Shown here one piece after another: positions 1,783 through 64,000 of a DNA stretch of 64,000 nucleotides. This DNA comes from Neoalteromonas arenosi (GTDB taxonomy: Bacteria; Pseudomonadota; Gammaproteobacteria; Enterobacterales; Alteromonadaceae), in contig NZ_JAUCBP010000002.1 in the NCBI RefSeq assembly GCF_030362855.1, forward strand, positions 310,001-374,000. Direction: 5' to 3'. The position numbers and the translations under genes are program-made. Position 1 is the stretch's first letter. Every line of letters begins with the position of its first letter. Under the pieces are notes generated by a model that did not search any database, was not told where the DNA came from, and saw only the letters and a program-made list of their open reading frames with translations.

Positions 1783-2637
1783 CTATTGAGAAAACAGGTG
1801 CTTTTGTTCAGCGATGGAGTGTTGGATGTCTTTTAGCATTGTTTTAAATGCTGGTGTGAGATTCTTCATCAACAACGATGGGTTGATGTAATACGGTGCC
1901 CGTTGGCCGTGGTACTCAACAGTCGGTCCAAGTTTGTGGAACTTGATCCCGAGAAAGCTCATACTTCGCGCCAATCGTGGCTCCATCATTACGTAAGTAT
2001 GAGGTATACCTTTAGCAATCACTATCGACGCCGCAGACATATAAAGACCAATCGCAATGAAAGGAAAACAGCGAAGTTCTTCTTCTGAATAAGTCTGGGG
2101 GTTAATAACACCGGTTGCAGCACCTTCAAACTGATCAATCTTGCGGCGTCTAAAACGCGCAGGCACTGCTAAACGGGATATTTCACATATTTCGTGCCGA
2201 GCAAAATTAGCCGGTGATAATTCTTCATCCGTGATTGAATGTAAGCAATACTTTTCGATGGGCAACTGCTTTGAATCGTCGTCAGGATGCACAATTCTCA
2301 CTGTTCCCGCGAAGTTGCCGGTTTGCAAATGCTGAATCATTGCATGGATCGAAAAATCATCGAAGTCATCAGACTCTTGCTCATCATCGCGGATTGGCTC
2401 AAAGTTTAACTCCTCGCAATAGACTTGGTGGCGAATATTAAATACTTTGGTTTTAGAATCCGGAGAGTCTGCTACCACAGGGCGCAAATAATCGGAAAAG
2501 TGTTTAGAGATTTGTTTGGCTTCTTTGAGTTTTGAGTAACCCGTCATGAGCTTTTTAACTCGACCAACTACAGCGTCAATGGGATTAGCCATTGCTACGG
2601 GGTAATTGGGGAGAGCTGTTGGATCGACTGGATTCAC
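1783..2637 (-). CDS. PEP-CTERM/exosortase system-associated acyltransferase (N-acyl amino acid synthase-like)
   Basis: A 284-residue GNAT-fold protein resembling the PEP-CTERM/exosortase-associated acyltransferase family (TIGR03694), which is related to FeeM-type N-acyl amino acid synthases and LuxI-type acyltransferases. Visible signatures are RHQVYCEELNFE at residues 69-80, GTVRIV at 111-116 and the basic EISRLAVPARFRRR block at 152-165. The GTG start is supported by GAGGT six bases upstream; an internal ATG at codon 16 is the alternative. No signal peptide or membrane segment is seen, so it probably acts in the cytoplasm using acyl-ACP. It is the first gene of a two-gene unit with the E1-like protein, and a THxN-like protein gene follows. 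The family is largely confined to genomes with exosortase; no exosortase gene lies in this window. Confidence 0.82.
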   Translation of the reverse strand: MNPVDPTALPNYPVAMANPIDAVVGRVKKLMTGYSKLKEAKQISKHFSDYLRPVVADSPDSKTKVFNIRHQVYCEELNFEPIRDDEQESDDFDDFSIHAMIQHLQTGNFAGTVRIVHPDDDSKQLPIEKYCLHSITDEELSPANFARHEICEISRLAVPARFRRRKIDQFEGAATGVINPQTYSEEELRCFPFIAIGLYMSAASIVIAKGIPHTYVMMEPRLARSMSFLGIKFHKLGPTVEYHGQRAPYYINPSLLMKNLTPAFKTMLKDIQHSIAEQKHLFSQ

Positions 2638-2817
2638 TATTTAACCTCAAGCTTAAAGCGACAATTCCGTTTGAATAAGTTTAATATAGCACAGTGCTCA
2701 ACGACCGTTGCAATGAACGTGATGTAATCTGTTAACTGCTGCGCTTACAGAAACTTAACTAGAATTTAAGTCATTCACGTTGCAACTATAGATGAAAAAT
2801 TCCAAGAGGAAACTGTT

Positions 2818-3600
2818 TTGTGTAAATTTACGCGCATTTCAAGTTACATATGTGCTTGTGTCTTAACACTATTTATTACTTTTAATTGTTGGGCTAGCGA
2901 ACTTGTTGATGTTATTGCCAAGGCAAAACCATCGATTGTCGGCGTTGGGGTATATGCACCTTTGGCAACGGTCAGTCATCAGCTTGAAGGTACCGGTTTT
3001 GTAGTAGGAGACGGGCATTACGTCGTTACCAATGAGCATGTGATAAATTCTGAATTGGAAGAAGGAATTAAATCGCAACGCGTGATATTTGTACCGAATG
3101 GCCGTTTAATGCGCACCATTTCTATTGAAGCAATTTATACCGATGCAGACGCTGATATCGCTATTGTTAAAATTGCCGAACAGTTGCCCGCGTTGACCCT
3201 ACAAGCAAAAGACAAAATTTCGCCTGATGGCAGTAACATATTGATTACGGGCTTCCCGATAGGTGCAGTTCTCGGCCTGTTTCCTGCCACTCATCAAGGT
3301 ATCGTTGCTGCGTTAACGCCAAATGTCAGACCGGCACAGCACAGCAGTCAAATTACCCAACAGTATCTGGACCGATTACAACAGCCTATGTTGATTTACC
3401 AACTCGACATTACGGCGTATCCGGGGAATAGTGGCAGTCCGGTTTATCTCAGCACAACGGGAGAGGTAATAGCAGTGATCAATAAAGTATTTGTTAAGCA
3501 AACGAAGGAATCTGCCATATCTGATCCAAGCGGAATAACCTATGCTATCCCGATTAGTTTTGTCCACGCACTGGCAGAAAAGCACAATATTCAACTTTAA
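2818..3600 (+). CDS. Periplasmic trypsin-like serine protease (S1C/HtrA-like, no PDZ)
   Basis: A 260-residue secreted protease. The start is TTG, preceded by AGAGGA. Residues 1-27 form a signal peptide ending at CWASE. The catalytic triad is visible as TNEHV (His74), DADIAIV (Asp113) and YPGNSGSPVY (Ser205). The single protease domain fills the protein and no PDZ domain follows, so this is shorter than DegP or DegS. The long insertion around residues 160-190 is Gln/Leu-rich. It stands alone between the divergent acyltransferase unit and the sugar genes, with an A/T-rich 180-base gap upstream. A role in envelope protein quality control is likely from family membership; the substrate is unknown. 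Confidence 0.82.
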   Translation: MCKFTRISSYICACVLTLFITFNCWASELVDVIAKAKPSIVGVGVYAPLATVSHQLEGTGFVVGDGHYVVTNEHVINSELEEGIKSQRVIFVPNGRLMRTISIEAIYTDADADIAIVKIAEQLPALTLQAKDKISPDGSNILITGFPIGAVLGLFPATHQGIVAALTPNVRPAQHSSQITQQYLDRLQQPMLIYQLDITAYPGNSGSPVYLSTTGEVIAVINKVFVKQTKESAISDPSGITYAIPISFVHALAEKHNIQL

Positions 3601-3706
3601 CCGTTATTTACCGCAATATTCCCGCTTTTAACCGTTTGTTAATTGGCTAAAGTATGCCAACATAACGCCCAGGTAAATTAAGTGGTGAAGGTATTACGCG
3701 TAGTTT

Positions 3707-4975
3707 ATGAACAATAATAAGATAGGAATTATTGGCCTTGGTTATGTGGGGTTGCCGTTAGCGGTTTCGTTTGGGCGACACTTCGATACCATTGGTCTTG
3801 ATATTAATCAGCATCGCGTAGCCCAATTGCGCGAGGGTCACGACAGCACATTAGAAGTTGATTCAGACGAACTAAAAGCGTCAAGTCATTTGACCTTTAC
3901 CAGTTCTGCCGAAGATTTAAAGACCTGTAATTACATCATTGTGACTGTGCCAACACCGATTGATCAGAACAAACAGCCAGACATGACGCCACTGCGCAAA
4001 GCCAGTGAAATGATTGGTAAGGTCATCCAAGCCGGTACTACTGTCATTTATGAGTCGACAGTGTATCCGGGGGCCACCGAAGAAGTGTGTATCCCGATAA
4101 TCGAAGCTGAATCAGGTTTGGTATTCAATCGGGATTTTTACGCCGGGTATAGCCCGGAGCGCATCAATCCAGGTGATAAAAAGCATCGTTTAGAAACGAT
4201 TGTAAAAGTGACTTCGGGTAGCACGCCAGATGTTGCCGAGCAAGTTGACGCGTTATATCGCGCTATCATTACCGCGGGTACGCACAAAGCGTCCTCAATC
4301 AAAGTCGCTGAAGCCGCAAAGGTTATCGAAAACACGCAACGCGATTTGAATATTGCCTTGATCAATGAGTTGGCAATGATTTTCGATCGCGTGGGCATCG
4401 ATACTGAAGAAGTGTTAGAGGCCGCCGGTAGCAAGTGGAACTTTTTGCCATTTCGCCCAGGCTTAGTGGGCGGTCACTGTATTGGTGTTGACCCCTATTA
4501 TTTAACCCATAAAGCCGAAGAGTTGGGGCATCATCCCGATGTGATTCTTGCGGGGCGTAGGATCAATGACCGTATGGGCGAATATGTCGTATCGCGTTTG
4601 GTCAAGACCATGTTGAATAAGCAAATAATGGTAAACGGGGCGAATATTTTATTGTTGGGGATTACCTTTAAAGAAAATTGTCCGGATATTCGCAACACCA
4701 AAGTCGTTGATATAGCGCACGAGTTAGAAAGTTATCACGTAAACCTCGATATTTATGACCCATGGGCTGAATCTTCAGAGGTAGAAGAAGAGTACGGTTT
4801 ACGCTTGGTCGATAAGCCCCAAGCTGGTAAGTATGACGCGATTATCGCAGCTGTGGCGCACAATGAATTTAAACAATGGACGAAAGAAGAGTTGCGTGGT
4901 CTGGGTAAGGCGCAAGCAGTCATCTTTGATTTAAAATATATGTTTGATAAACAAGCGGTCGATATTCGCTTGTAG
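3707..4975 (+). CDS. UDP-sugar 6-dehydrogenase (TviB/WbpA-type nucleotide sugar dehydrogenase)
   Basis: A 422-residue NAD-dependent enzyme that oxidises C6 of a UDP-sugar to the uronic acid. It shows the Rossmann motif GLGYVG at 10-15, the VPTPID loop near 81 and the catalytic Cys258 in [12 protein letters not shown]. That last form, rather than the GxGGxCxPKD of UDP-glucose dehydrogenases, is typical of TviB/WbpA/WbpO enzymes acting on UDP-GlcNAc or UDP-GalNAc, so the substrate is probably an N-acetylhexosamine. It is followed after nine bases by an epimerase, as in Vi antigen and O-antigen loci. The gene pair probably supplies precursors for an exopolysaccharide or O-antigen whose glycosyltransferases are not in the window. 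Confidence 0.88.
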
Positions 4976-4984
4976 AGGTTTGAT

Positions 4985-6001
4985 ATGAAAGTTTTAGTAA
5001 CCGGGGCAGCTGGTTTTATTGGTTCGCATGTTTCACTGTACTTACTGGAGCGTGGTGACGAGGTCGTTGGGCTAGATAATATTAATGACTATTATGATGT
5101 GTCATTGAAAGAAGCGCGTTTAGAACGGATTAAGGCGCACCCCAATAGTGACAAATTCACCTTTGTTAAAATGGCTGTAGAAGATCGTGACAACATGCCT
5201 GCGCTATTTGCCGAGCAAAAATTCGATAAGGTCGTGCATTTAGCCGCACAAGCTGGCGTTCGCTACTCATTGGAAAATCCACATGCGTACATCGATGCCA
5301 ACATTGTTGGCTTCATGAATATTCTAGAAGGGTGTCGACATAATCAGATTCAACATTTGGTATACGCATCATCGAGTTCGGTGTACGGTGCCAATGAAAG
5401 TATGCCGTTTTCAGTGCACGACAATGTTGACCACCCAGTGTCTTTGTACGCTGCGAGTAAGAAAGCGAATGAATTAATGGCGCATACTTACAGTCACTTG
5501 TATGGTTTGCCTACAACCGGACTGCGCTTCTTTACGGTTTATGGCCCATGGGGACGTCCGGATATGGCGCTTTTCTTATTTACTAAGGCCATTCTAGAAG
5601 GCAAGCCTATTGATGTGTTTAATTATGGTAACCACCGCCGTGACTTTACCTATATTGACGATATTGTTGAAGGCATCATCCGTACCCTCGATCACAACGC
5701 TCCGGCCAATGAAAGCTGGGATGGTAAGCAACCCGATCCGGGTACCAGTAAAGCACCGTGGCGCGTATATAACATTGGTGCGCAGACGCCAGTGCATTTG
5801 ATGGAGTATATCGAAACCCTTGAATCCGCATTGGGCAAAAAGGCAGAGAAAAACTTGTTACCGCTGCAATTAGGCGATGTACCTGATACATACGCTGATG
5901 TTGAAGCATTGGTAAGCGATGTTGATTATCGACCAAAGACCACTATCAAAGAAGGGATCGGTAACTTCGTTGCGTGGTATCGTGAGTTCTATAACGTCTA
6001 A
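4985..6001 (+). CDS. UDP-glucuronate 4-epimerase-like NAD-dependent epimerase
   Basis: A 338-residue extended short-chain dehydrogenase/reductase. It begins with the nucleotide-binding motif TGAAGFIG (6-13) and has the YxxxK catalytic pair at Tyr155/Lys159 (YAASK), plus the [13 protein letters not shown] segment typical of CapI/LpsL UDP-glucuronate epimerases. The [18 protein letters not shown] stretch near residues 32-49 is also characteristic of that group. With the TviB/WbpA-like gene nine bases upstream, the real substrate may instead be a UDP-N-acetyl-uronic acid or UDP-GlcNAc, as for WbpP/TviC, so specificity is open. Its last codons overlap the likely start of the next gene. Confidence 0.85.
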
Positions 6002-6968
6002 ATTGCGTATCCTAGTTACGGGCGGAGCTGGCTTCATTGGCTCGGCTCTGATCCGTAACCTCGTCCAGAATCCAGAATATCATATACTTAACATAGACAA
6101 CCTAACTTACGCTGCAAACCCTGAGGCATTAGCGGCTGTAAGACACTCTGATAATTACCAGTTTCGACAGCTCGACATTTGTCACAAATCAGCCCTCAAG
6201 CTTGTGATTAATGAATATAATCCCGATGTAGTATTTCATTTAGCCGCTGAATCTCATGTAGATAACAGTATCGCTGACGCGGATATTTTTGTGCAGTCAA
6301 ATATTGTGGGCACCGCGGCTTTGTTAGATGTATGCCGTCAAACATGGCGGGACAGAAAGCATTCAGGTACCTTTATTTTTGTAGGAACTGACGAGGTTTA
6401 TGGGGCAAATACGGGAGATTCCCCATACAATGAGACCCAAGCGCTAGCACCAAGCTCGCCTTATTCTGCGTCTAAAGCAGCGGCGACATTGCTAGTGCAG
6501 AGTTGGCAAAAAACTTATCATTTTCCCGCCATTATTAGTCATTGCACAAACAATTACGGTCCGTATCAACATCCCGAGAAGCTATTGCCAAAGGCATTGT
6601 ATATGGCTTCTAGGGGCCAGAGCGTTCCGCTGTATGGCGAGGGTGATCAGCAGCGCGATTGGCTATATGTCGATGACCATGTTGAGGCACTAATTCTGCT
6701 AATGCAGAAAGGGGTAATTGGTGAAACTTATCATATCGGTACGGAGGTGTTGACTACCAACTCTGCATTACTCCGGACACTCGATAAGGTGTTACGGCGA
6801 GACACTTCTGACCGACAAAGAATAGAAGTCCAACATGTCCAAGATCGTCCTGGCCATGATCAATGTTATTGGATAAACACCGATAAAATAAGGCAATTAG
6901 GCTGGTGCCCCAAAATAAACTTAGAAGAGGGTTTAGAGCGACTCGTTAAGCATTACATCACGGTATAA
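5982..6968 (+). CDS. dTDP-glucose 4,6-dehydratase-like protein (RmlB family)
   Basis: An SDR protein of about 328 residues matching Rml[13 protein letters not shown] at its start, [12 protein letters not shown] in the middle, the TDEVYG motif, the YSASKAAA catalytic Tyr/Lys segment and [12 protein letters not shown]. The dehydratase converts dTDP-glucose to the 4-keto-6-deoxy sugar, a rhamnose precursor. The longest frame opens at 5919 and would overlap the epimerase by over 80 bases; the GTG at 5982 or the TTG at 6003 (giving MRILVTGG) are more realistic, and I use 5982. No rmlA, rmlC or rmlD follows, so it may act on another nucleotide sugar or depend on genes elsewhere. It is convergent with the patatin gene, one base apart. 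Confidence 0.8.
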
Positions 6969-6969
6969 A

Positions 6970-7806
6970 TTATTGTTGTTGGCTAACTTTACCTAGCTTC
7001 ATTGGTAGGAAGTCTTTTACTGTTCGATATCCTGCTTCGTATAACTGCTGCTTTTTGTCGACAGATATGTCGAAGTCTACCGCTGATGCGTCGCCGGTAT
7101 TAATGACCAAAGTATTCTGCCAATAATTGGCATGTACATACTCGCGCGACAGCGCCGTCATAAAGGTCTTTATCAGCAGGCTCACGTATTGGGGTAAATA
7201 TAACGTGCGCTTCTCATCGAGGGGCTTTTCGCGCAGCTCACTTTTTAAGCGGAAGCAGACACTTGGCGTACCATCACCACGCCAGTCCTCAAACAGCGCA
7301 TCCTCAGAAAGAATGGCTCCATCAACCATTACGTGCTGCTTGTATATCTGAAAACTAAATATCAACGGGATCGACATTGAATAGCGAATAGCTTTGGAGA
7401 CTTTAAAATCAGGTGTGTGTTTGCGGTTAAAAACGACCGGCCCGCCGCCATTAATGTCAGTAGCTAGTATACTTAAATCGAGTGGCATATCTTTAAAGCA
7501 ACGACCGTCTAATTGCTCGTCCATCCACCGTTCAAATCGCTCTCCTGAGGCCAGCCCACCTTTGCAAAATAAACGGATTAGACTGAATTCCCTGAACTGT
7601 TTGAAATTGGTATTAAGCGCCAGCGAAAATATGTCATCTAATGATCGTTGCGCCGCATACAGAGCCGCCACAATTGAGCCGCCAGAGACACCCACAATGG
7701 TATCGAACTGAATATTCAGATCTTGCAGCGCCCTGAGTATACCTATATGGGCAGGCAGTCGCGTTCCACCGCCAGAGAAAATGGGGACTATTTGCTCTTT
7801 TGCCAT
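6970..7806 (-). CDS. Patatin-like phospholipase family protein
   Basis: A 278-residue lipid acyl hydrolase. The oxyanion-hole motif SGGGTR (11-16), the nucleophile elbow GVSGGS with Ser41 and the catalytic Asp162 in VDGAI make a complete Ser-Asp dyad. There is no signal peptide, so it is cytoplasmic or an effector-type lipase rather than a conventional secreted enzyme. The length matches short bacterial patatins such as the RssA/YlbK group. It lies downstream of glcB on the same strand, separated by an 88-base gap, next to other lipid genes. Substrate (phospholipid or neutral lipid) cannot be told from sequence. Confidence 0.88.
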   Translation of the reverse strand: MAKEQIVPIFSGGGTRLPAHIGILRALQDLNIQFDTIVGVSGGSIVAALYAAQRSLDDIFSLALNTNFKQFREFSLIRLFCKGGLASGERFERWMDEQLDGRCFKDMPLDLSILATDINGGGPVVFNRKHTPDFKVSKAIRYSMSIPLIFSFQIYKQHVMVDGAILSEDALFEDWRGDGTPSVCFRLKSELREKPLDEKRTLYLPQYVSLLIKTFMTALSREYVHANYWQNTLVINTGDASAVDFDISVDKKQQLYEAGYRTVKDFLPMKLGKVSQQQ

Positions 7807-7894
7807 TGCTTACTCTACTGATTGCAATAAGCAAAGCGTAGTTTGCATCCACGTATTACGCCAGCCATGACTAGCGTAATGCGCGGTAAAAGCA

Positions 7895-10078
7895 CTAGTT
7901 GCGCAATTGCGCCTTCATCTCAATGCGCTTAGCGTGCAACAGAGGCTCGGTGTAGCCGTTAGGTTGTTCACAGCCAGCAAATATCAGCTCGCTTGCAGCT
8001 TGGAATCCAATTGCATCTTCAGGGTTTGGAGTCATAGGGATGTAGTCAGGATCATTGGCATTTTGCTCATCTACCAAAACGGCCATTTTTAGTAATGAAG
8101 CCTGAACTTGGTCTTTAGTGATAACGCCGTGTAGTAACCAGTTAGCCAAATGCTGACTTGAGATACGCAGCGTTGCGCGGTCTTCCATTAAGCCAACGTT
8201 ATTGATATCTGGAACTTTAGAGCAACCGATCCCTTGATGCACCCAGCGCACTACATAGCCTAAGATACCTTGGACATTATTGTCGATTTCGCGTTCGATA
8301 TCGTCAGCTGATAAAGCATTGTTATCGTCTGCCAAAGGTATGGTCAGAATATCATCCAGACCATCGAACTGCTCGCCGCTAAACTGCTGCTGGACGGCAA
8401 AAACATCGACCATGTGATAGTGCAAAGCGTGTAGAGTCGCAGCGGTAGGTGAGGGCACCCACGCAGTATTTGCTCCCGCTTTAGGGTGGCCAATCTTAGC
8501 GGACATCATATTCGCCATTTCATCTGGGATAGGCCACATACCTTTACCAATTTGTGCTTTACCACTTAAACCGCAGTCAAGACCAGCCATAACGTTGGCA
8601 TGTTCGTATGCTTTAATCCAAGGCAAGTTTTTAAGCTCTGCTTTGGCCGCGAAAGCGCCAGCGTGCATTGACGTGTGGATTTCGTCGCCAGTACGGTCAA
8701 GAAAGCCGGTATTGATGAAAACTACACGTTCGTGTGCAGCTTTGATACAAGCTTTAAGGTTAACTGAGGTACGGCGCTCTTCATCCATTATGCCCATTTT
8801 AAGGGTGTTCGGCGCTAAGCCAAGAATACCCTCTACGGCTGCAAATAGGTCGTTGGTGAAGCTGACCTCTTCAGGGCCATGCATCTTCGGTTTAACTATA
8901 TAGATATTGCCTTGTTGCGAATTTTTTAACGTGTTGTTACCCAGCACATCGTGTTTTCCGATAAGGCTAGTGATCACACCATCCATGATCCCTTCAAAAA
9001 CGGGCTCATTGCGAAACAGGATGGCATCGTTTTGCATTAAATGCCCTACGTTGCGCACGAACATCAAACTGCGTCCTGAGAGCGTGCAATCGCTACCATC
9101 AATACCAGTATAATTGCGATCTTGTGCCATGGTTCGCGTAAATGTTTTGTCGCCTTTAGCCACAGCAACACTTAAATTACCTTGCATTAGACCTAACCAA
9201 TTAGCGTAAACGAGCGTTTTGTCTTCGGCATCGACAGCGGCAACAGAATCTTCACAATCCATGATCGTGGTTAATGCCGACTCTAACAGAATGTCTTTAA
9301 GGTTAGCGGGATCATCAGCGGCGACAGGGTGTGATGCATCAATTTGAATTTCTGCATGCAACCCATTGTGGCGCAGTAGTATTTCGTTCGGCTCATTAGG
9401 TGCGCCATTAAAGGCGACTAATTGTGCTGGATCAGCTAATGCCACTGCAGAACCTTCACCTAACTCAACAGCAAGCTGGCTGTTGATTATTGAATATCGC
9501 GTAGCATCCACATGAGAGCCTGATGTTAGCGGTGCAATAGTATCCAACCACAAGCGCGCCTGACGAATTACTTCTTGGCCACGTGCGCGATTATAACCGC
9601 CAGTTTTTTCCCGTCCGTCGGTTTCGGAGATGATATCTGTGCCGTAGAGCGCGTCATAAAAACTGCCCCACCGTGCGTTTACAGCGTTTAGTGCGTAACG
9701 TGCGTTGTTGATTGGTACTACGAGTTGCGGCCCAGCGACTTGGGCAATTTCGGCATCTACATTGGTTGTGTTAATAGTGAAATCATTAGGCTGTTCAACT
9801 AAATATCCAATATCCTGTAAAAATGCCTTATAGGACGTAGCATCAAGGTCAGGATTTTCTTTATGGAAGTTATCGAGCTTTACTTGGAGCTTGTCTCGAT
9901 GAGCCAATAACGCGTGGTTGCGCGGCGTAAACTCGGCCAGTATTTGCTCAAAGCCTTGCCAAAAATCATCACTTGTAACACCTGAGTTCGGCAGTGCTTG
10001 TTGTTCGATAAACTCATAGAGGCAAGTGGCAATCTGCAAGTCGCCGCGTGCGATACGATTGGAATTTGTAGTAGACAT
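7895..10078 (-). CDS. glcB: Malate synthase G
   Basis: A 727-residue protein, the normal length of monomeric malate synthase G (about 723 in E. coli). It condenses glyoxylate with acetyl-CoA to malate in the glyoxylate shunt. Diagnostic stretches include TTIMDCEDSVAAVDAEDK, GRSLMFVRNVGHLM, the KPKMHGPEE segment and GIMDEERRTSVNLKA near the catalytic centre, and the late HQGIGCSKVPD block carrying a conserved Cys. It is the long G isoform rather than AceB (A isoform), and it is not in an operon with isocitrate lyase, which lies 3.5 kb away on the same strand. The 111-base upstream gap contains a large inverted repeat and a perfect 14-base palindrome, candidate control sites. Confidence 0.97.
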   Translation of the reverse strand: MSTTNSNRIARGDLQIATCLYEFIEQQALPNSGVTSDDFWQGFEQILAEFTPRNHALLAHRDKLQVKLDNFHKENPDLDATSYKAFLQDIGYLVEQPNDFTINTTNVDAEIAQVAGPQLVVPINNARYALNAVNARWGSFYDALYGTDIISETDGREKTGGYNRARGQEVIRQARLWLDTIAPLTSGSHVDATRYSIINSQLAVELGEGSAVALADPAQLVAFNGAPNEPNEILLRHNGLHAEIQIDASHPVAADDPANLKDILLESALTTIMDCEDSVAAVDAEDKTLVYANWLGLMQGNLSVAVAKGDKTFTRTMAQDRNYTGIDGSDCTLSGRSLMFVRNVGHLMQNDAILFRNEPVFEGIMDGVITSLIGKHDVLGNNTLKNSQQGNIYIVKPKMHGPEEVSFTNDLFAAVEGILGLAPNTLKMGIMDEERRTSVNLKACIKAAHERVVFINTGFLDRTGDEIHTSMHAGAFAAKAELKNLPWIKAYEHANVMAGLDCGLSGKAQIGKGMWPIPDEMANMMSAKIGHPKAGANTAWVPSPTAATLHALHYHMVDVFAVQQQFSGEQFDGLDDILTIPLADDNNALSADDIEREIDNNVQGILGYVVRWVHQGIGCSKVPDINNVGLMEDRATLRISSQHLANWLLHGVITKDQVQASLLKMAVLVDEQNANDPDYIPMTPNPEDAIGFQAASELIFAGCEQPNGYTEPLLHAKRIEMKAQLRN

Positions 10079-10093
10079 ATATACGCCTCAATA

Positions 10094-10155
10094 AAAGCAT
10101 AATTTATTTAGTCGTAGTAAACCATGCCTTGCGACTAAAGTTTAATTTATGCTTT
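10094..10155. repeat. Bipartite inverted repeat upstream of glcB
   Basis: Left arm AAAGCATAA (10094-10102) and TTTAGTCG (10107-10114) are mirrored by CGACTAAA (10132-10139) and TTATGCTTT (10147-10155). The two half-arms pair perfectly and are separated by A/T-rich spacers of 4 and 7 bases, with a 17-base centre. It sits 16 bases upstream of the glcB ATG, where it could form a 5'-leader stem or serve as paired operator sites. No T-run follows it in the glcB direction, so it does not look like a terminator for the upstream LysR gene. Confidence 0.55.
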
Positions 10156-58113: not shown

Positions 58114-59691
58114 ATGACCGCCAATATTCATGACCAACGCATCCTTATTCTCGACTTTGGCTCGCAATACACGCAATTAATTGCGCGCCGTGTGCGCGAA
58201 ATCGGTGTTTATTGTGAGCTCTGGGCATGGGATGTCAGTGAAGAGCAAATCAAAACCTTTAATCCAGACGGTATTATTCTATCCGGTGGCCCCGAATCAG
58301 TAACCGAGGGCGGCTCACCACGTGCGCCGGAGTATGTGTTTAATGCTGGCAAGCCTGTACTGGGTATTTGTTACGGTATGCAAACCATGGCAGAGCAATT
58401 GGGTGGACGTGTACAAGGCTCAAATTTGCGTGAATTTGGTTATGCGCAAGTTGAGTTATTAGAAAGTACCCCTTTATTTGAACACATCGAAGATCATATC
58501 GGTGAAAACGGCAATGCGTTGATTGATGTTTGGATGAGCCATGGTGATAAAGTTGCCGAGATTCCCGCTGATTTTAAGACTATAGCCAAGACCGGAAGCT
58601 GTCCGCACGCTGCGATGGTTAATGAAGAGCGCCAATTCTACGGTGTTCAATTTCACCCTGAAGTCACACATACCAAACAAGGACAACGGATCCTGCAACA
58701 TTTCGTGATGCAGATATGCGGTTGTGAAAAACTGTGGACACCAGCGGCTATCATTGATGATGCCATTGAGCGCATCAAACAACAGGTCGGTGATGATAAG
58801 GTTATACTTGGTCTGTCGGGAGGCGTCGACTCCTCAGTGACCGCCATGCTATTGCACCGAGCGATTGGCGACAACCTTACCTGTGTGTTTGTAGACAATG
58901 GTCTGCTGCGTTTGAACGAAGGGCAGCAAGTTATGGATATGTTTGGTTCGCACTTCGGCCTCAATATAATCAAAGTGGACGCGGAAGAGCGTTTCTTAAG
59001 AGCGCTGGAAGGTGAATCTGACCCAGAGGCAAAGCGCAAAATTATTGGGGGCGAGTTTGTCAAAGTATTCGATGAGCAAGCCGGCAATATAGTTGATGCT
59101 AAATGGCTAGCGCAGGGGACCATTTACCCCGATGTGATCGAATCAGCAGGTTCTGCAACCGGCAAAGCCCACGTGATTAAGTCGCACCACAATGTTGGCG
59201 GCTTACCGAAAGATATGAAATTGGGATTAGTCGAGCCTTTACGCGAACTGTTTAAGGATGAGGTGCGTAAAATCGGTCTTGAACTCGGTTTACCTTACGA
59301 CATGCTGTATCGCCATCCATTCCCAGGACCAGGCTTAGGAGTCCGCGTCTTGGGTGAGATCAAGAAAGAATACTGTGATCTGCTGCGTCTGGCAGATGCC
59401 ATTTTCATCGAAGAGTTGCACCGCGCTGAGCTGTATCACAAAGTAAGTCAAGCATTTACCGTATTCTTGCCTGTGCGCTCTGTTGGTGTAATGGGTGACG
59501 CGCGCAAATACGATTGGGTTGTGTCCTTAAGAGCCGTTGAAACCATTGATTTTATGACAGCACATTGGGCACATTTACCTTATGATTTCCTAGGGCACGT
59601 ATCCAATCGTATCATTAATGAGATTGATGGAATTTCTCGTGTCGTTTACGATGTATCAGGAAAACCGCCGGCAACGATTGAGTGGGAGTAA
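58114..59691 (+). CDS. guaA: GMP synthase (glutamine-hydrolysing)
   Basis: A 525-residue enzyme converting XMP to GMP. The N-terminal class I glutaminase has its nucleophile Cys in GICYGMQTM (about residue 87) and the His-Glu pair in QFHPEVTH. The ATP pyrophosphatase P-loop is LSGGVDSSV near residue 233, and the C-terminal dimerisation domain ends KPPATIEWE, as in E. coli. The last 308 bases are repeated in a second copy at 60675-60982. guaA 3' ends are known integration sites for genomic islands. Confidence 0.98.
59384..59691 (+). repeat. guaA 3'-end direct repeat, copy 1 (intact gene)
   Basis: These 308 bases match 60675-60982 without gaps; I count 11 mismatches by eye, about 96% identity. 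This copy encodes the residues expected for GuaA ([16 protein letters not shown]). Confidence 0.95.
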
Positions 59692-59717
59692 ATGCTCTTT
59701 AACGTTTGTTCACGTTG

Positions 59718-59749
59718 AGGTTACTTCAGTTTATTGGAGTAACCTTATT
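59718..59749 (+). terminator. Likely intrinsic terminator after guaA
   Basis: AGGTTACT pairs with AGTAACCT, extended by T-G and C-G pairs to about ten pairs with an eight-base loop, then TATTT. It ends the guaBA transcript. Confidence 0.6.
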
Positions 59750-60014
59750 TGCGTTTCAAGGCGCCATTAACAATCTGTAAAAATTAGTATTCTCCATTCC
59801 AGGTAAACACGAAACAACAAAAGCACCTTTCTTTCGATTCCATTATTGGAGTGTTTTTCATTTATCGTCCTTTAGACATCATGCACTGTGTCAATATATT
59901 TTACATGGCTGAATTGTTGAACTGAAAATGTCATTATAAACAGCGTTTTAGATAATGGTGTGAAAAATGCATAACCACGATTATTGTAAAGTGTTTCCAA
60001 AAAAGGAAAGTAAT
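59750..60014. other. Gene-free A/T-rich stretch between guaA and the PEP-CTERM gene
   Basis: Together with the terminator this gap is 323 bases long. It contains no convincing open reading frame, tRNA or repeat. Only the 5'-region of the PEP-CTERM gene, with AAAGGAAAG just before its ATG, is recognised. Base composition is lower in GC than the flanking genes. Confidence 0.6.
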
Positions 60015-60659
60015 ATGCGATTACTAACTATTGTGTTTTTCATGTTTAGCCTTAATGCCAATGCGGCGTTAATTCTTGATCAATCATTTGATTCTTCAAA
60101 TATTCAAACGGGCGCCAACTTTTCTCAAGGCAGTTTTGGGTTATTTGACGATTTTGTGCTAGCGGATACGTATAGCATAGATAGCATCAGTTTTTGGGGC
60201 GGGTATTGGAGTTCAGGCGCGCAGCCTGCGACGCCAAACTTTCGGGTGCAAATCCGCTCATCGACTAGCGTCGCTGACATAGTGTATGACTCGCTGATTA
60301 ATCCAGTGGGCGTGTTTGATACGGGGTATAATCATAACGGTTCGAGTAACGGCGATATATTGAGATTTGACGTTGTTTTTAATGATTTAATTCTCGGCGC
60401 TGGTTCATATTTTATTACGTTCTCGAGTCAAAACAGCCCCAGCGGTACAAGTTTTTATTGGCAACGATTGAGAGGCTCTGGCGATCGAGCATCTGGTTCG
60501 CTCGGTGGCGAATTAAGCACATTTACTGCTTTAAATCTCGCGCTAGCGATTGAAGGATCGCAAGCACAGCAACCCCCGTCAGTGCCTGAGCCTGCTTCAA
60601 TAGTACTCTTAGGTTTAGGTTTAGCTGGGTTAGCCGCTCGCCGCAGAGTCAAAGCATAA
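60015..60659 (+). CDS. PEP-CTERM sorting domain-containing protein
   Basis: A 214-residue exported protein. The ATG at 60015, after AAGGAAAG, begins a signal peptide (MRLLTIVFFMFSLNANAA); the frame is open to 59967 but that start is less likely. The mature part is a Ser/Asn/Gly-rich beta protein (SIDSISFWGGYW; VQIRSSTS). The C-terminus is a textbook PEP-CTERM tag: VPEPAS, a hydrophobic helix and ARRRVKA. Exosortase would recognise and cleave it. It has no Cys in the mature part and no enzyme motif. The gene lies between two copies of the guaA 3' end. Confidence 0.92.
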   Translation: MRLLTIVFFMFSLNANAALILDQSFDSSNIQTGANFSQGSFGLFDDFVLADTYSIDSISFWGGYWSSGAQPATPNFRVQIRSSTSVADIVYDSLINPVGVFDTGYNHNGSSNGDILRFDVVFNDLILGAGSYFITFSSQNSPSGTSFYWQRLRGSGDRASGSLGGELSTFTALNLALAIEGSQAQQPPSVPEPASIVLLGLGLAGLAARRRVKA

Positions 60660-60674
60660 TTAATCCCTAAGTGG

Positions 60675-60982
60675 TGCGTCTTGGAGATGCCATTTTCATC
60701 GAAGAGTTGCACCGCGCTGAGCTGTATCACAAAGTAAGCCACGCATTTACCGTACTCTTGCCAGTGCGCTCTGTTGGTGTAATGGGTGACGCGCGCAAAT
60801 ACGATTGGGTTGTGTCCTTACGAGCCGTTGAAACCATTGATTTTATGACAGCACATTGGGCACATTTACCTTTTGATTTCCTAGGGCACGTATCCAATCG
60901 TATCATTAATGAGATTGATGGAATTTCTCGTGTCGTTTACGATGTATCAGGAAAACCGCCTGCAACGATTGAGTGGGAATAG
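60675..60982 (+). pseudogene. Partial guaA 3'-end copy (direct repeat copy 2)
   Basis: The last about 102 codons of guaA are repeated here in frame, ending in KPPATIEWE and TAG. Relative to copy 1 at 59384-59691 I count 11 substitutions and no gaps. The changes in the code give Q to H, F to L, Y to F and A to G, plus silent changes. A GTG at 60671 would open a 103-residue frame but the protein would be only the dimerisation domain, and no ribosome site is present. It is best read as a remnant of a duplication or insertion event, not as a functional gene. Confidence 0.9.
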
Positions 60983-61064
60983 CCTAGACTCAATTTTGAC
61001 AGTTTGCGGGGGATATTGGCTCCCCCAGGCGTTTACTGAAATCAAGCAAAGGGAATGGAGTGAT

Positions 61065-61871
61065 ATGAGTAACAAAAGAAGCTTTATCTTAGGCTTGGGG
61101 CACCAGAAATGTGGCACGAGTTGGCTGCACAAATACTTGTGTGAGTCCGATCTTTTCGCGCGGGGCTTTAAAAAGGAATATCACGTTTGGGATAGGTTAG
61201 ATACACCGCTGTTTAAAGATAAACGTGAGAAGCTGACATGGCGTACATTTTTTAAGTCTAATTTAATGCGTGCTTACAAGATGGAGCACTCTGAAGGTTA
61301 TTACTTCGACTATTTTGACCGGTTGATCGGCAACAATAAATTGATTGGCGCCGACATAACCCCCTCGTATAGTGGCCTTAGCGCGCGACGATTGGAATAT
61401 ATTAAACGCAACTTTGCTGAGCGCGATATTGATGTCAAGGTGGTGATTTTGACTCGTGAACCGTTGTCACGAATCAAGAGTGCCGTGCGGTTTAACCTGG
61501 ATCGCAAAGATTACACAGAGGGTATTAACGTTGGTGAGACTGACTTTGAAAAGGCATTATTACAATATTACAAGTCTGAACACTGTACGTTGCGCACTCA
61601 ATATCAAAATATTATCTTGGAAGCTGCAAAAGTCTTTAATCCAGAAGACATTTATGTAGGTTTCTATGAAAACATGTTTGACGAAGATGAGGTCAAACGC
61701 ATATCCCAATTCTTACAGGTTGAGCCCAAATATGAATTTGTAAAAGTGCGGGTGAACAAAACCAAAAATACTGTGATGGAGACGAAATCTGATACTTTGA
61801 TTAAAGAATTTTACGCCGATACGTATGCGTATTTTTATCAAAACTACCCTGTTACCAAAGAGCTCTGGTAA
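61065..61871 (+). CDS. Sulfotransferase family protein
   Basis: A 268-residue sulfotransferase. The PAPS 5'-phosphosulfate loop is GLGHQKCGTSWLHKYL (residues about 11-26) and the 3'-phosphate motif REPLSRIKSAVRFN lies near residue 132. The start ATG follows GGAG by four bases; the frame is open upstream into the guaA copy. The stop and the next start overlap (TAATG), so the two sulfotransferases are coupled. No signal peptide is seen. It would transfer sulfate to a sugar or other acceptor. The acceptor is unknown. Confidence 0.87.
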   Translation: MSNKRSFILGLGHQKCGTSWLHKYLCESDLFARGFKKEYHVWDRLDTPLFKDKREKLTWRTFFKSNLMRAYKMEHSEGYYFDYFDRLIGNNKLIGADITPSYSGLSARRLEYIKRNFAERDIDVKVVILTREPLSRIKSAVRFNLDRKDYTEGINVGETDFEKALLQYYKSEHCTLRTQYQNIILEAAKVFNPEDIYVGFYENMFDEDEVKRISQFLQVEPKYEFVKVRVNKTKNTVMETKSDTLIKEFYADTYAYFYQNYPVTKELW

Positions 61872-62653
61872 TGGTTAACAAGAGCTTTATATTCCTAGCC
61901 GGTCACCACCGCAGTGGAACGTCACTGTTACATGAAATCATACGCAACCACAAAGATATCAGTGGTATGGTTGACACGGGGGTACCGGAGGACGAAGGAC
62001 AGCACCTACAGAGCGTGTTTAAACCTGCATCTGAGTTTGGTGGCGCAGGTAAATATATTTTCGATGCAAACTCCTATATGAATGAGTCTCACGAGCTAGC
62101 CACGGAAGCTTCTGCGCAAAAAATACTTGAACAATGGGAGTCTTATCTTGACTCAGCCTGTTCGCATTATATCGAAAAAAGCCCTCCTAACTTAATTAGA
62201 ACACGGTTTTTACAGCGTTTATTTCCCAATAGTAAGTTTATTGTCATCTTAAGACACCCATTAGCAGTTGCGTTTGCGACGCAAAAATGGAGTAAGAGCT
62301 CGATAAAATCACTGATAGAACACACCCTTAGAGGGTACGAGTTATTTGCCGAAGATAGTAAATATTTACAACAATGTTATGTGTTGCAGTACGAGAGCTT
62401 TATCGCTAGACCACAAATTGAAGTAGATAAAATTTTCGAGTTCCTAGACATGGAGTCGATCGAAGTTACACATCATATTCGCCAAGGCATAAACGAAAAA
62501 TACTTTAATGCTTGGGAAAAGCATAAAAATAAATTGTGGAATAAGTTAATACCGCCAATCAATCAAAAACTCGAGCTACGCGCTAATAAGTTTGGTTATA
62601 GCTTACTTGACTACAGAAATGAGTTTGCGCGTTCACTATCGAGTCTCGCTTGA
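61871..62653 (+). CDS. Sulfotransferase family protein
   Basis: A 260-residue sulfotransferase starting MVNKSFIFLAGHHRSGTSLL, where the GHHRSGTSLLHEII segment is the PAPS loop. The 3'-phosphate region is VILRHPLAVAFATQKW. It overlaps the preceding gene by one base (TAATG). Two adjacent enzymes of the same type suggest sequential or alternative sulfation of one product. It is convergent with the next gene. Confidence 0.87.
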   Translation: MVNKSFIFLAGHHRSGTSLLHEIIRNHKDISGMVDTGVPEDEGQHLQSVFKPASEFGGAGKYIFDANSYMNESHELATEASAQKILEQWESYLDSACSHYIEKSPPNLIRTRFLQRLFPNSKFIVILRHPLAVAFATQKWSKSSIKSLIEHTLRGYELFAEDSKYLQQCYVLQYESFIARPQIEVDKIFEFLDMESIEVTHHIRQGINEKYFNAWEKHKNKLWNKLIPPINQKLELRANKFGYSLLDYRNEFARSLSSLA

Positions 62654-62668
62654 TCTGATTTTGGCTGA

Positions 62669-63580
62669 TTATTGCAACAAAAATATATTGGGGAAGGATT
62701 CATCGATTCGCTGAAGGTCTTCTTGGTATAACCGTTTTAGTAAGCTCGCTTCTTGTTCAGAGAACAAGGTGTATTTTTCAGCCTTATTATTTGCAGGAAA
62801 TGTTTGATAGACATCGTCGCACACTTGCCGCCAGTTCGCTGGTTTTTTATCGAACTTTGCAGCCATTTGCTCAATCTTTTCAATTGCCGAATAGCTTGGC
62901 GTCATTGTCGAGGTTGGCCTAGAAAGTGTGGGAACGGCAATATTTTCATCACCAATAAATGCTTTAATAATGTCACTGCTGCGCTTTGAATAATCCTCTT
63001 GCGTCCATATTTTAAAAGCGAAAGGCCGCGCGGTTATACCGTTTATCCGCTTTAGTAAATCATGCCAATTAGGCCTATAACCATGCTTAAATAGTTCGAG
63101 GAAATAGTCTTTTGCAGCGATTGCTCCCTTGGGGTTAAATCGCAACATTGTAATATATGCTCCGGTCATTACTTTGTCGAAAGAACGGATCGACGCGTAA
63201 ACCCTGACGTCCAGCTTTTGTGATGCTAAAACATCCAAAAAATGTAGCTTAGATTCTATCTGGGGATAGAGCCGTTCGCTCAATAATTGCAGTGGTGTGC
63301 CTGAGACGTTTTCTTCCGACAACAACAGGTGCTCGCAGTGTGAAGGAAGGTAAAAGTTAGTTTTTCGCAGATAGAGGTACTTGAGCTTGGCCGGAGCAAG
63401 ATCATAAAGCATTTTTTTCTTACCTTTAGGGGTAAGTGCGCTTAATTTCTGCCGAGTTTCGTCCAGAGGCTCATAATACATACCTTGGTTCACAAGGTCA
63501 TTTCGCATTGCAAGCAACGTATCCTGAAAGTGCGTGGTCGCGGTTTTGTGAAACCCAATATGAAATTTAAATACTTTCAA
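62669..63580 (-). CDS. Sulfotransferase-like protein (divergent)
   Basis: A 303-residue protein starting at TTG 63580, which follows AAAGGA by six bases. The N-terminal FHIGFHKTATTHFQDTL resembles the phosphosulfate loop of sulfotransferases with the KTATT form found in many bacterial homologues; the RSFDKVMTGAYITM region may be the 3'-phosphate site (R-S-F-D-K instead of R-x-P). It differs clearly from the two preceding genes, so sulfotransferase activity is likely but not certain. Convergent with them, 15 bases apart. Confidence 0.7.
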   Translation of the reverse strand: MKVFKFHIGFHKTATTHFQDTLLAMRNDLVNQGMYYEPLDETRQKLSALTPKGKKKMLYDLAPAKLKYLYLRKTNFYLPSHCEHLLLSEENVSGTPLQLLSERLYPQIESKLHFLDVLASQKLDVRVYASIRSFDKVMTGAYITMLRFNPKGAIAAKDYFLELFKHGYRPNWHDLLKRINGITARPFAFKIWTQEDYSKRSSDIIKAFIGDENIAVPTLSRPTSTMTPSYSAIEKIEQMAAKFDKKPANWRQVCDDVYQTFPANNKAEKYTLFSEQEASLLKRLYQEDLQRIDESFPNIFLLQ

Positions 63581-63706
63581 CCTAAATCCTTTACTTTGGA
63601 GAGACCAACGTCTCAATGTTTCTATGTATTAATACTTGTAGTTTGCTGTGCTAATTACGATACCACGGCATACGAGTCTGAGCTAAGCGTTCTTATCAGT
63701 CGCGAG

Positions 63707-64000
63707 TTAGATAAACGTTGCAATTTCATCAAGTGTTTTCTTTTGTTGCGCGTGTAGCGGTACAGTTGCATCTTCAGCGGGGTAACCCGCGATCACCAAC
63801 ATGTAAGGGCGTTCATCATCCGGTCGCTGACAAATCTTGGATAAAAAAGTCATCGGTTTTGGCGTATGGGTCAATGTCACTAGGCCAGAATGATGTAAAG
63901 CTGTGATAAGCATGCCGGTAGCGATGCCCACAGATTCGTGAACATAATAGTTTGTGTGTTTATCACCTGTGTTCAAGCCGCCTTTCTTTTGACTGAAAAT
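63707..64000 (-). CDS. Nitroreductase family protein (5' end cut by window)
   Basis: A frame open from the window edge (the start is outside) encodes the C-terminal about 97 residues of a nitroreductase: KHTNYYVHESVGIATGMLI, the HHSGLVTLTHTPKPM strand and ERPYMLVIAGYPAEDA are typical of the BluB/iodotyrosine deiodinase-like flavoenzymes. It binds FMN and uses NAD(P)H. The internal TTG at 63976 gives an artificial shorter start. Substrate unknown. Confidence 0.85.
   Translation of the reverse strand: MFSQKKGGLNTGDKHTNYYVHESVGIATGMLITALHHSGLVTLTHTPKPMTFLSKICQRPDDERPYMLVIAGYPAEDATVPLHAQQKKTLDEIATFI

Follow-up and report, generated by a model that had tools for sequence, protein, structure and literature searches.

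A 64,000-nucleotide stretch of the Neoalteromonas arenosi genome (contig NZ_JAUCBP010000002.1 of assembly GCF_030362855.1, positions 310,001 to 374,000 of the forward strand; hereafter the window) carries an intact guaA gene whose 3′ end occurs a second time downstream. Between the functional end of guaA (copy 1) and a 5′-truncated guaA tail (copy 2) lies an inserted segment with a gene for a PEP-CTERM surface protein, and the sequence GAGTGGGA is found at the end of both copies. Passages in PMC9376610 and PMC7775301 describe GAGTGGGA as the integration core of islands that enter the guaA site, the integrases of which are often P4-type. Two separate additions are seen at the locus: the PEP-CTERM unit and, behind copy 2, a 2.6-kb block with sulfotransferase-like genes. 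The features are collected in Table 1.

The duplicated guaA tail is confirmed. Alignment of the two copies gives 96.5% identity over 310 bp, with 12 differences and no gaps in 311 aligned columns, and a second method recovers the pair 59381–59680/60672–60971 at 97%. A reading of the window made from sequence only (the sequence-only reading) had described a gap-free recurrence of the last 308 bp of guaA at about 96% identity, and both statements are borne out, with a length of 310 or 311 bp. A 308-bp query finds two matching places in the whole genome. In a scan of 454 kb of the 472-kb contig for direct repeats (at least 100 bp long, at least 80% identical and at most 40 kb apart), the guaA tail pair is one of two repeats, the other being a tandem repeat with a 73-bp offset. 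The two genomic matches, the repeat scan and the 12 differences in 311 columns exclude a chance repeat. Because several mismatches fall within the first 14 bp, the true 5′ edge may lie anywhere from 59381 to 59394. A single segment does intervene, as had been stated; its length, from the stop codon of copy 1 to the start of copy 2, is 980 bp and not the 983 bp given earlier.

Table 1. Features at the guaA locus of the window (window coordinates; ORF, open reading frame; GC, guanine plus cytosine)
Feature	Position	Strand	Basis
Intact guaA (GMP synthase, 525 residues)	58114..59691	+	ORF; single full-length match in own genome
Repeat copy 1, functional guaA 3′ end	59381..59691	+	Repeat search, alignment
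GAGTGGGA integration core at guaA 3′ end (left site)	59680..59687	+	
Inserted segment, 980 bp, 41.2% GC (contig 46.3%)	59692..60671	.	
PEP-CTERM surface-protein gene (possible earlier start 59967)	60015..60659	+	PF07589, TIGR02595
Repeat copy 2, 5′-truncated guaA tail, drifting, probably a pseudogene	60672..60982	+	PF00958; alignment
Second GAGTGGGA core (right site)	60971..60978	+	
Strain-specific block, ~41% GC	60983..63616	.	Pfam, GC, congener comparison
Sulfotransferase-like gene	61065..61871	+	
Sulfotransferase-like gene	61871..62653	+	
ORF without assignment	62669..63616	-	
3′ part of nitroreductase-like gene	63707..64000	-	Match to gene directly behind guaA in congener G003

The right-hand edge of the repeat is sharp. 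Apart from the left and right GAGTGGGA, the 40 kb from guaA onward contain no exact core on either strand, and the flanks past the two stop codons share 23% identity over 60 bp. Three congeners have a single guaA copy each and lack the tail duplication. In one of them (G003) guaA is followed, after a gap of 45 bp, by the nitroreductase-like gene, which represents an empty site; the other two (G001 and G002) hold other cargo behind guaA (NfeD/SPFH-like ORFs recognized by eye; a GH16 protein). The region downstream of guaA therefore varies within the genus. This comparison of empty and filled sites, proposed by the sequence-only reading, together with a repeat that ends at a published core, supports its view of an insertion at a guaA 3′ hotspot; an old tandem duplication shared by all relatives, which it had named as the refuting case, is not seen in the three congeners.

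The two copies have evolved differently. Copy 2 departs from copy 1 by A427G, Q446H, F451L and Y490F, and by L423V and L424V at the ragged edge of the repeat. The relatives show A, Q, F and Y at positions 427, 446, 451 and 490 (26 alignable of 29 loci), and over 99 codons all four amino-acid departures from the relatives’ state sit in copy 2; the drift at these residues and their retention in the intact gene both agree with the sequence-only reading. On this pattern, copy 2 is drifting with copy 1 under constraint, and copy 2 is probably a pseudogene. In the same 99 codons, 5 of 67.7 synonymous and 4 of 229 nonsynonymous sites have changed between the copies, whereas synonymous differences separate copy 1 from congener G003 at 51 codons. 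The dating by synonymous change that had been suggested thus places the event as far younger than the genus. Copy 1 shows derived synonymous states relative to the three congeners at 59448, 59530 and 59688, and both copies have Leu426 where 25 of the 26 relatives have Arg.

The same architecture recurs in other genomes. A family survey with the last 103 codons of guaA as the query matched 391 of 395 genomes, nine of which, counted by eye, gave more than one guaA-end match. In a survey of the class, 319 of 369 genomes had a guaA-end match and 12, the N. arenosi genome included, had more than one (again counted by eye). The order of intact guaA, cargo and 5′-truncated tail on one contig was found in six genomes of the class survey (the N. 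arenosi genome, G437, G526, G647, G664 and G716), and the family survey adds one more (G016). An eighth case, Halomonas sp. McH1-25 (L127), was found among 80 loci retained from 584. The eight cases, with tails of 82–807 bp, carry unrelated cargo. L127 holds a type I restriction-modification (RM) system (hsdM, hsdS and hsdR) with a SIR2-domain gene between hsdS and hsdR; it lies between guaA and the guaA tail (2328–9882 of that locus). The cargo of G664 comprises AbiEi/AbiEii, a transposase with Mu-type and rve domains and a PAS-GGDEF protein, and that of G016 an AI-2E transporter, a Na/H exchanger and PRC and BON proteins. G647 has a 2877-residue GH94 protein, G437 a protein of metallo-beta-lactamase fold, G716 an amidohydrolase and G526 several small enzymes; seven further ORFs of the cargoes have no Pfam match. 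The two guaA copies diverge by 9–13% in G016 and G437.

Other second matches were not counted as cases. In the family survey these lay at contig ends (G142, G179), belonged to a second guaB-guaA pair (G331) or were weak (G353). In the class survey four lay on another contig, mostly at contig ends (G601, G712, G781, G618), and two were second, longer copies (G469, G743). A 63-bp match on another contig (G037) was likewise set aside, as were tandem arrays in G139, G217 and G306. In G331 (L044/L045), the second guaB-guaA pair lies ~28 kb behind the first, its guaA is 68% identical to that of the window, and a P4-type integrase match follows 308 bp behind it. The tandem arrays, all in Thalassotalea (L041 2228–2813, L042 1990–2963 and L043 6814–7729, from G217, G306 and G139, respectively), consist of guaA tail plus terminator, with a period of 227–253 bp and 2.6–3.8 copies by Tandem Repeats Finder; in L042 and L043 the unit edges lie, by eye, near inverted repeats such as CGGTCATAAAGTTTATGACCG. 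They are a different phenomenon from the cargo cases. One genome rated 100% complete (G007) has no guaA-end match, only weak (26–29%) matches to the amidotransferase part.

The eight cases share one edge of the repeat and differ at the other. The shared edge, the end of the repeat, lies −2 to +4 bp from the guaA stop codon in every case, beside GAGTGGGA; the starts are all different, at 82, 152, 198, 311, 338, 411, 550 and 807 bp before the stop. The exact core is present in copy 1 of every case and in copy 2 of four (the window, G016, L127 and G647). At the stop codon, identity between the copies over 60 bp falls from 97–100% to 23–25% in the window, L127, G664 and G647; in the other four, values before the stop of 72% (G016), 78% (G716), 90% (G526) and 32% (G437, whose copies fall out of register when aligned without gaps) give way to 20–38%. 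No local similarity between the copies was found in the 200 bp past the stop in any of the eight.

The 3′ end of clpX served as a control in the same class survey and matched 366 of 369 genomes. More than two clpX matches occurred in 17 genomes (the author’s count), and no extra match was a neighbouring, near-identical tail; a second clpX match is probably explained in most cases by the paralogue hslU. In G736, two clpX fragments lying side by side resemble a split gene rather than a copied tail. A neighbouring truncated copy was seen for guaA in 6 of 319 genomes versus 0 of 366 for clpX (Fisher p = 0.01), or 5 of 318 versus 0 of 366 with the window’s own case removed (p = 0.02).

No tyrosine integrase accompanies these insertions in the searches made. 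On the N. arenosi contig there is no match to the tyrosine integrase family PF00589 (serine integrases were not searched), and the ORFs of the next ~22 kb beyond the window, read by eye, include no integrase, so the one that the sequence-only reading had proposed to look for just beyond 64 kb was not found there. The eight cargo segments gave no tblastn hit to three query tyrosine integrases, and a Pfam scan of their ORFs, from which some small ones were left out, gave no tyrosine-integrase domain. For comparison, 39 of 160 guaA-end loci have a P4-type integrase within 3 kb downstream, none of the eight cases among them; this sample is biased to viral contigs, and the 39 include seven weak matches (23–25% identity). 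The one guaA prophage followed to its far end, in E. coli MB07152, is bounded by a 17-bp repeat with no guaA tail, and a 20-bp repeat is reported for ICERspD18B in a published passage; the earlier expectation of an ordinary attachment-site repeat of about 20 bp is in line with both. In four viral contigs (L186–L189), a guaA tail of 93–117 bp preceded by non-guaA DNA lies near one end (near 10001–10117), as if an integrase crossed over deeper in guaA.

The PEP-CTERM gene is the sole gene assigned in the insert, as had been read from the window. Its product matches PF07589 at 34 bits, and the genome has one exosortase match (PF09721) elsewhere, so the protein could be sorted. The low GC of the insert is caused by a 33% stretch ahead of the gene; the gene itself, at 45.4%, is close to the contig mean, and base composition therefore does not mark it as foreign. 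It is foreign-looking because no relative was found at E 1e-12 in the 394 other genomes of the family. An insertion sequence (IS) or transposon origin was considered and rejected, with no IS-like gene and no flanking inverted repeats seen around the insert; nor was a tRNA or a curated RNA family found as the insertion target. Within the PEP-CTERM gene, GGCAACGATTGAGAGG at 60460–60475 is identical at 15 of 16 positions to the bases spanning the left core, the sole such match besides the two guaA ends in 454 kb on both strands; it is either chance or the relic of a third site. Elsewhere in the genome (contig C7, L224), an integrase gene 28% identical to a guaA-type integrase lies close to a gene that, by eye, has a PEP-CTERM-like C-terminus (4315–5568 and 6154–6900).

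Downstream of copy 2, the 2.6-kb block has a GC content below that of every 2.7-kb segment of the contig and no match at the same site in the three congeners. The nitroreductase-like gene behind it has, as a whole, weak matches to the BluB/nitroreductase family, below curated cut-offs; the part within the window has no Pfam match.

We interpret the PEP-CTERM unit as an insertion at the known guaA integration site, in which DNA bearing its own guaA tail, core and cargo recombined into the resident guaA, and we judge the balance of probability to lean modestly towards this account. The incoming molecule would have the order guaA tail (~0.3 kb), core GAGTGGGA, cargo. It would cross over with the resident gene either in the shared tail, by RecA, or at the core, by a guaA-type integrase acting in trans, leaving an intact guaA (its last stretch perhaps incoming), the cargo and a displaced tail joined to the old flank. 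A constant edge at the core combined with an arbitrary other edge suggests that the left end of the cargo was once joined to guaA site-specifically, a step that a guaA-type integrase would have performed in a donor. Tail and cargo would then have entered together, and the variable left edge of the tail may be an illegitimate join, made by aberrant excision or by fusion of a fragment end as DNA was taken up. The donor probably belonged to the same species or a very close one, because the synonymous difference between the copies is low and Leu426 is shared; the same two facts disfavour a donor from another genus. In G016, identities of copy 2 and copy 1 to four congeners in the 700–800 interval are 88/82, 88/81, 85/81 and 81/81; the pattern near the 3′ end, with three of four congeners nearer copy 2, would fit copy 2 as the native tail. 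As a broader and unlikely generalization, guaA-tail cassettes might form a distinct, integrase-less mobile class: circular molecules in which cargo is joined to a guaA 3′ tail with GAGTGGGA at its end, and which would enter related guaA genes by RecA via the tail or by a resident guaA-type integrase via the core, sparing the essential gene and spreading defence and surface-protein genes.

Several observations weigh against an imported tail. The exact core is missing from copy 2 in half of the cases (G664, G437, G716 and G526), and in G016, G437, G716 and G526 the boundary at the stop could reflect the different conservation of coding and non-coding sequence. The fourth congener of G016 shows no separation, and elsewhere in that tail neither copy is consistently nearer. 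Leu426 is encoded within the first 14 bp of the repeat, where the copies match poorly. The paralogue hslU clouds the clpX control, in which individual checks covered the genomes with more than two matches. In 93 guaA-centred loci (1.54 Mb), non-guaA direct repeats occur in 10 and guaA repeats in 2; the presence of long repeats alone therefore does not set guaA apart. The cargo of G664 includes a DDE transposase gene. A P4-type integrase normally adjoins the guaA 3′ end, and its absence in all eight cases demands an extra assumption, namely that the cargo never was the left part of a P4-type integrase island.

Copying in place is a serious rival to the imported tail, although we rate it as unlikely. 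The cargo would have entered alone, and the tail would have been copied from the resident guaA while a staggered or broken target was being repaired, with one break at the core. The RM system with its SIR2-domain gene in L127 and the AbiE genes in G664 suit this account, and the close kinship of the window’s two copies and their shared Leu426 fit it as well. An imported tail agrees better with the 9–13% divergence in G016 and G437 and with the 3′ portion of copy 1 in G016. We know of no established mechanism for staggered breaks of 300–800 bp. A less serious competitor, and a rather more doubtful one, takes e14 and phage 21 as its model. These elements of icd carry their own integrase with one fixed crossover point, and the end of the host gene is duplicated over 0.1–0.2 kb around them. 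Crossover by an element’s integrase at the 5′ boundary of the repeat would have exchanged the guaA end for the version carried by the element, and the integrase and most of the element would later have been deleted. The same order of parts is predicted, and deep crossover inside guaA seems to occur, given the 93–117 bp tails of the viral contigs L186–L189. Unlike e14 and phage 21, however, the guaA cases have eight different 5′ edges, which would need eight integrases with eight cores, and the eight cargo segments yielded no tyrosine integrase.

Two simpler explanations fare worse. In one, the guaA tail would first have been duplicated in tandem, with unrelated DNA inserted later between the two units; tandem duplication has a precedent in the arrays of three to four copies in three Thalassotalea genomes (the genus of L066). 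Their repeat, however, extends ~60 bp past the stop codon and includes the terminator, whereas the copies in the window share nothing past the stop, and the insertion would need to strike the stop codon of copy 1 in every case; this origin is highly improbable. An assembly artefact is scarcely credible: near-identical repeats can mislead assemblers, but the copies differ at 12 sites and stand 1.3 kb apart within a 472-kb contig, and seven other genomes share the architecture, including two in which it lies within contigs as long as 3.0 and 3.7 Mb.

The known guaA islands are integrase-driven and bounded by short repeats. The cases described here form a second, recurring product at that core: a long guaA tail is present, no tyrosine integrase was found, and the cargo varies, from AbiE genes and a type I RM system accompanied by a SIR2-domain gene to a surface protein, transporters and metabolic enzymes. 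If imported tails are the rule, the end of an essential gene would serve as a homology arm for exchanging single genes between strains with the essential gene unharmed, a simple route for small islands that have no recombinase at all. Because the boundary next to the core is sharp, a small recombination assay could test the idea. A search of the literature by title returned nothing on integrase-less guaA-tail insertions; subscription journals were mostly outside its coverage, and no firm claim of absence is made.

Islands associated with guaA were reportedly described by Song et al. in 2012. Like the P4-type islands GIsul2 and ICERspD18B, as presented in passages of PMC9376610 and PMC7775301, the window’s insertion involves the last guaA codons, has GAGTGGGA on both sides and leaves guaA intact. 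Unlike them, it has no detected tyrosine integrase beside guaA, a repeat of 311 bp rather than 17–20 bp, a 1-kb cargo with a single gene, and a guaA tail of variable extent at its right end. In enterococci, cfr(D) has been described next to guaA, either entire or truncated (PMC10936028 and PMC7766396), so that a guaA piece again adjoins cargo. These were the bacterial guaA cases, judging the remaining papers by title, that a text search for truncated or duplicated guaA returned; cfr(D) is flanked by IS elements, and the passages describe no duplicated tail at the resident guaA. Homology-facilitated illegitimate recombination and transformation merodiploids (excerpts of PMC3784515) share one homologous and one illegitimate junction, with the resident gene anchoring foreign DNA, but the systems in those excerpts are experimental, concern other genes and have no fixed integration core at one end.

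These comparisons leave two further lines of earlier work. Homology-facilitated illegitimate recombination was reportedly treated by de Vries and Wackernagel in 2002 (cited in PMC2884548), and long target duplication at RM gene insertions is said to have been described by Nobusato et al. in 2000 and Furuta et al. in 2010. RM genes can insert with a long, variable target duplication, according to passages of PMC3031569. The guaA cases resemble these insertions in that cargo lies between long stretches of host sequence repeated in direct orientation, the length of which varies, and no recombinase gene is seen; the window itself has both the long flanking target repeat and an empty site in a relative. 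They differ in that one repeat end always lies beside the integration core and in that the window’s cargo is a PEP-CTERM gene, with one of the eight cargoes (L127) an RM system; that the target is guaA in all eight follows from the search having been made with guaA. The guaA-tail case thus joins two known kinds, the guaA-site islands and the long-target-duplication insertions, as a variant of both.

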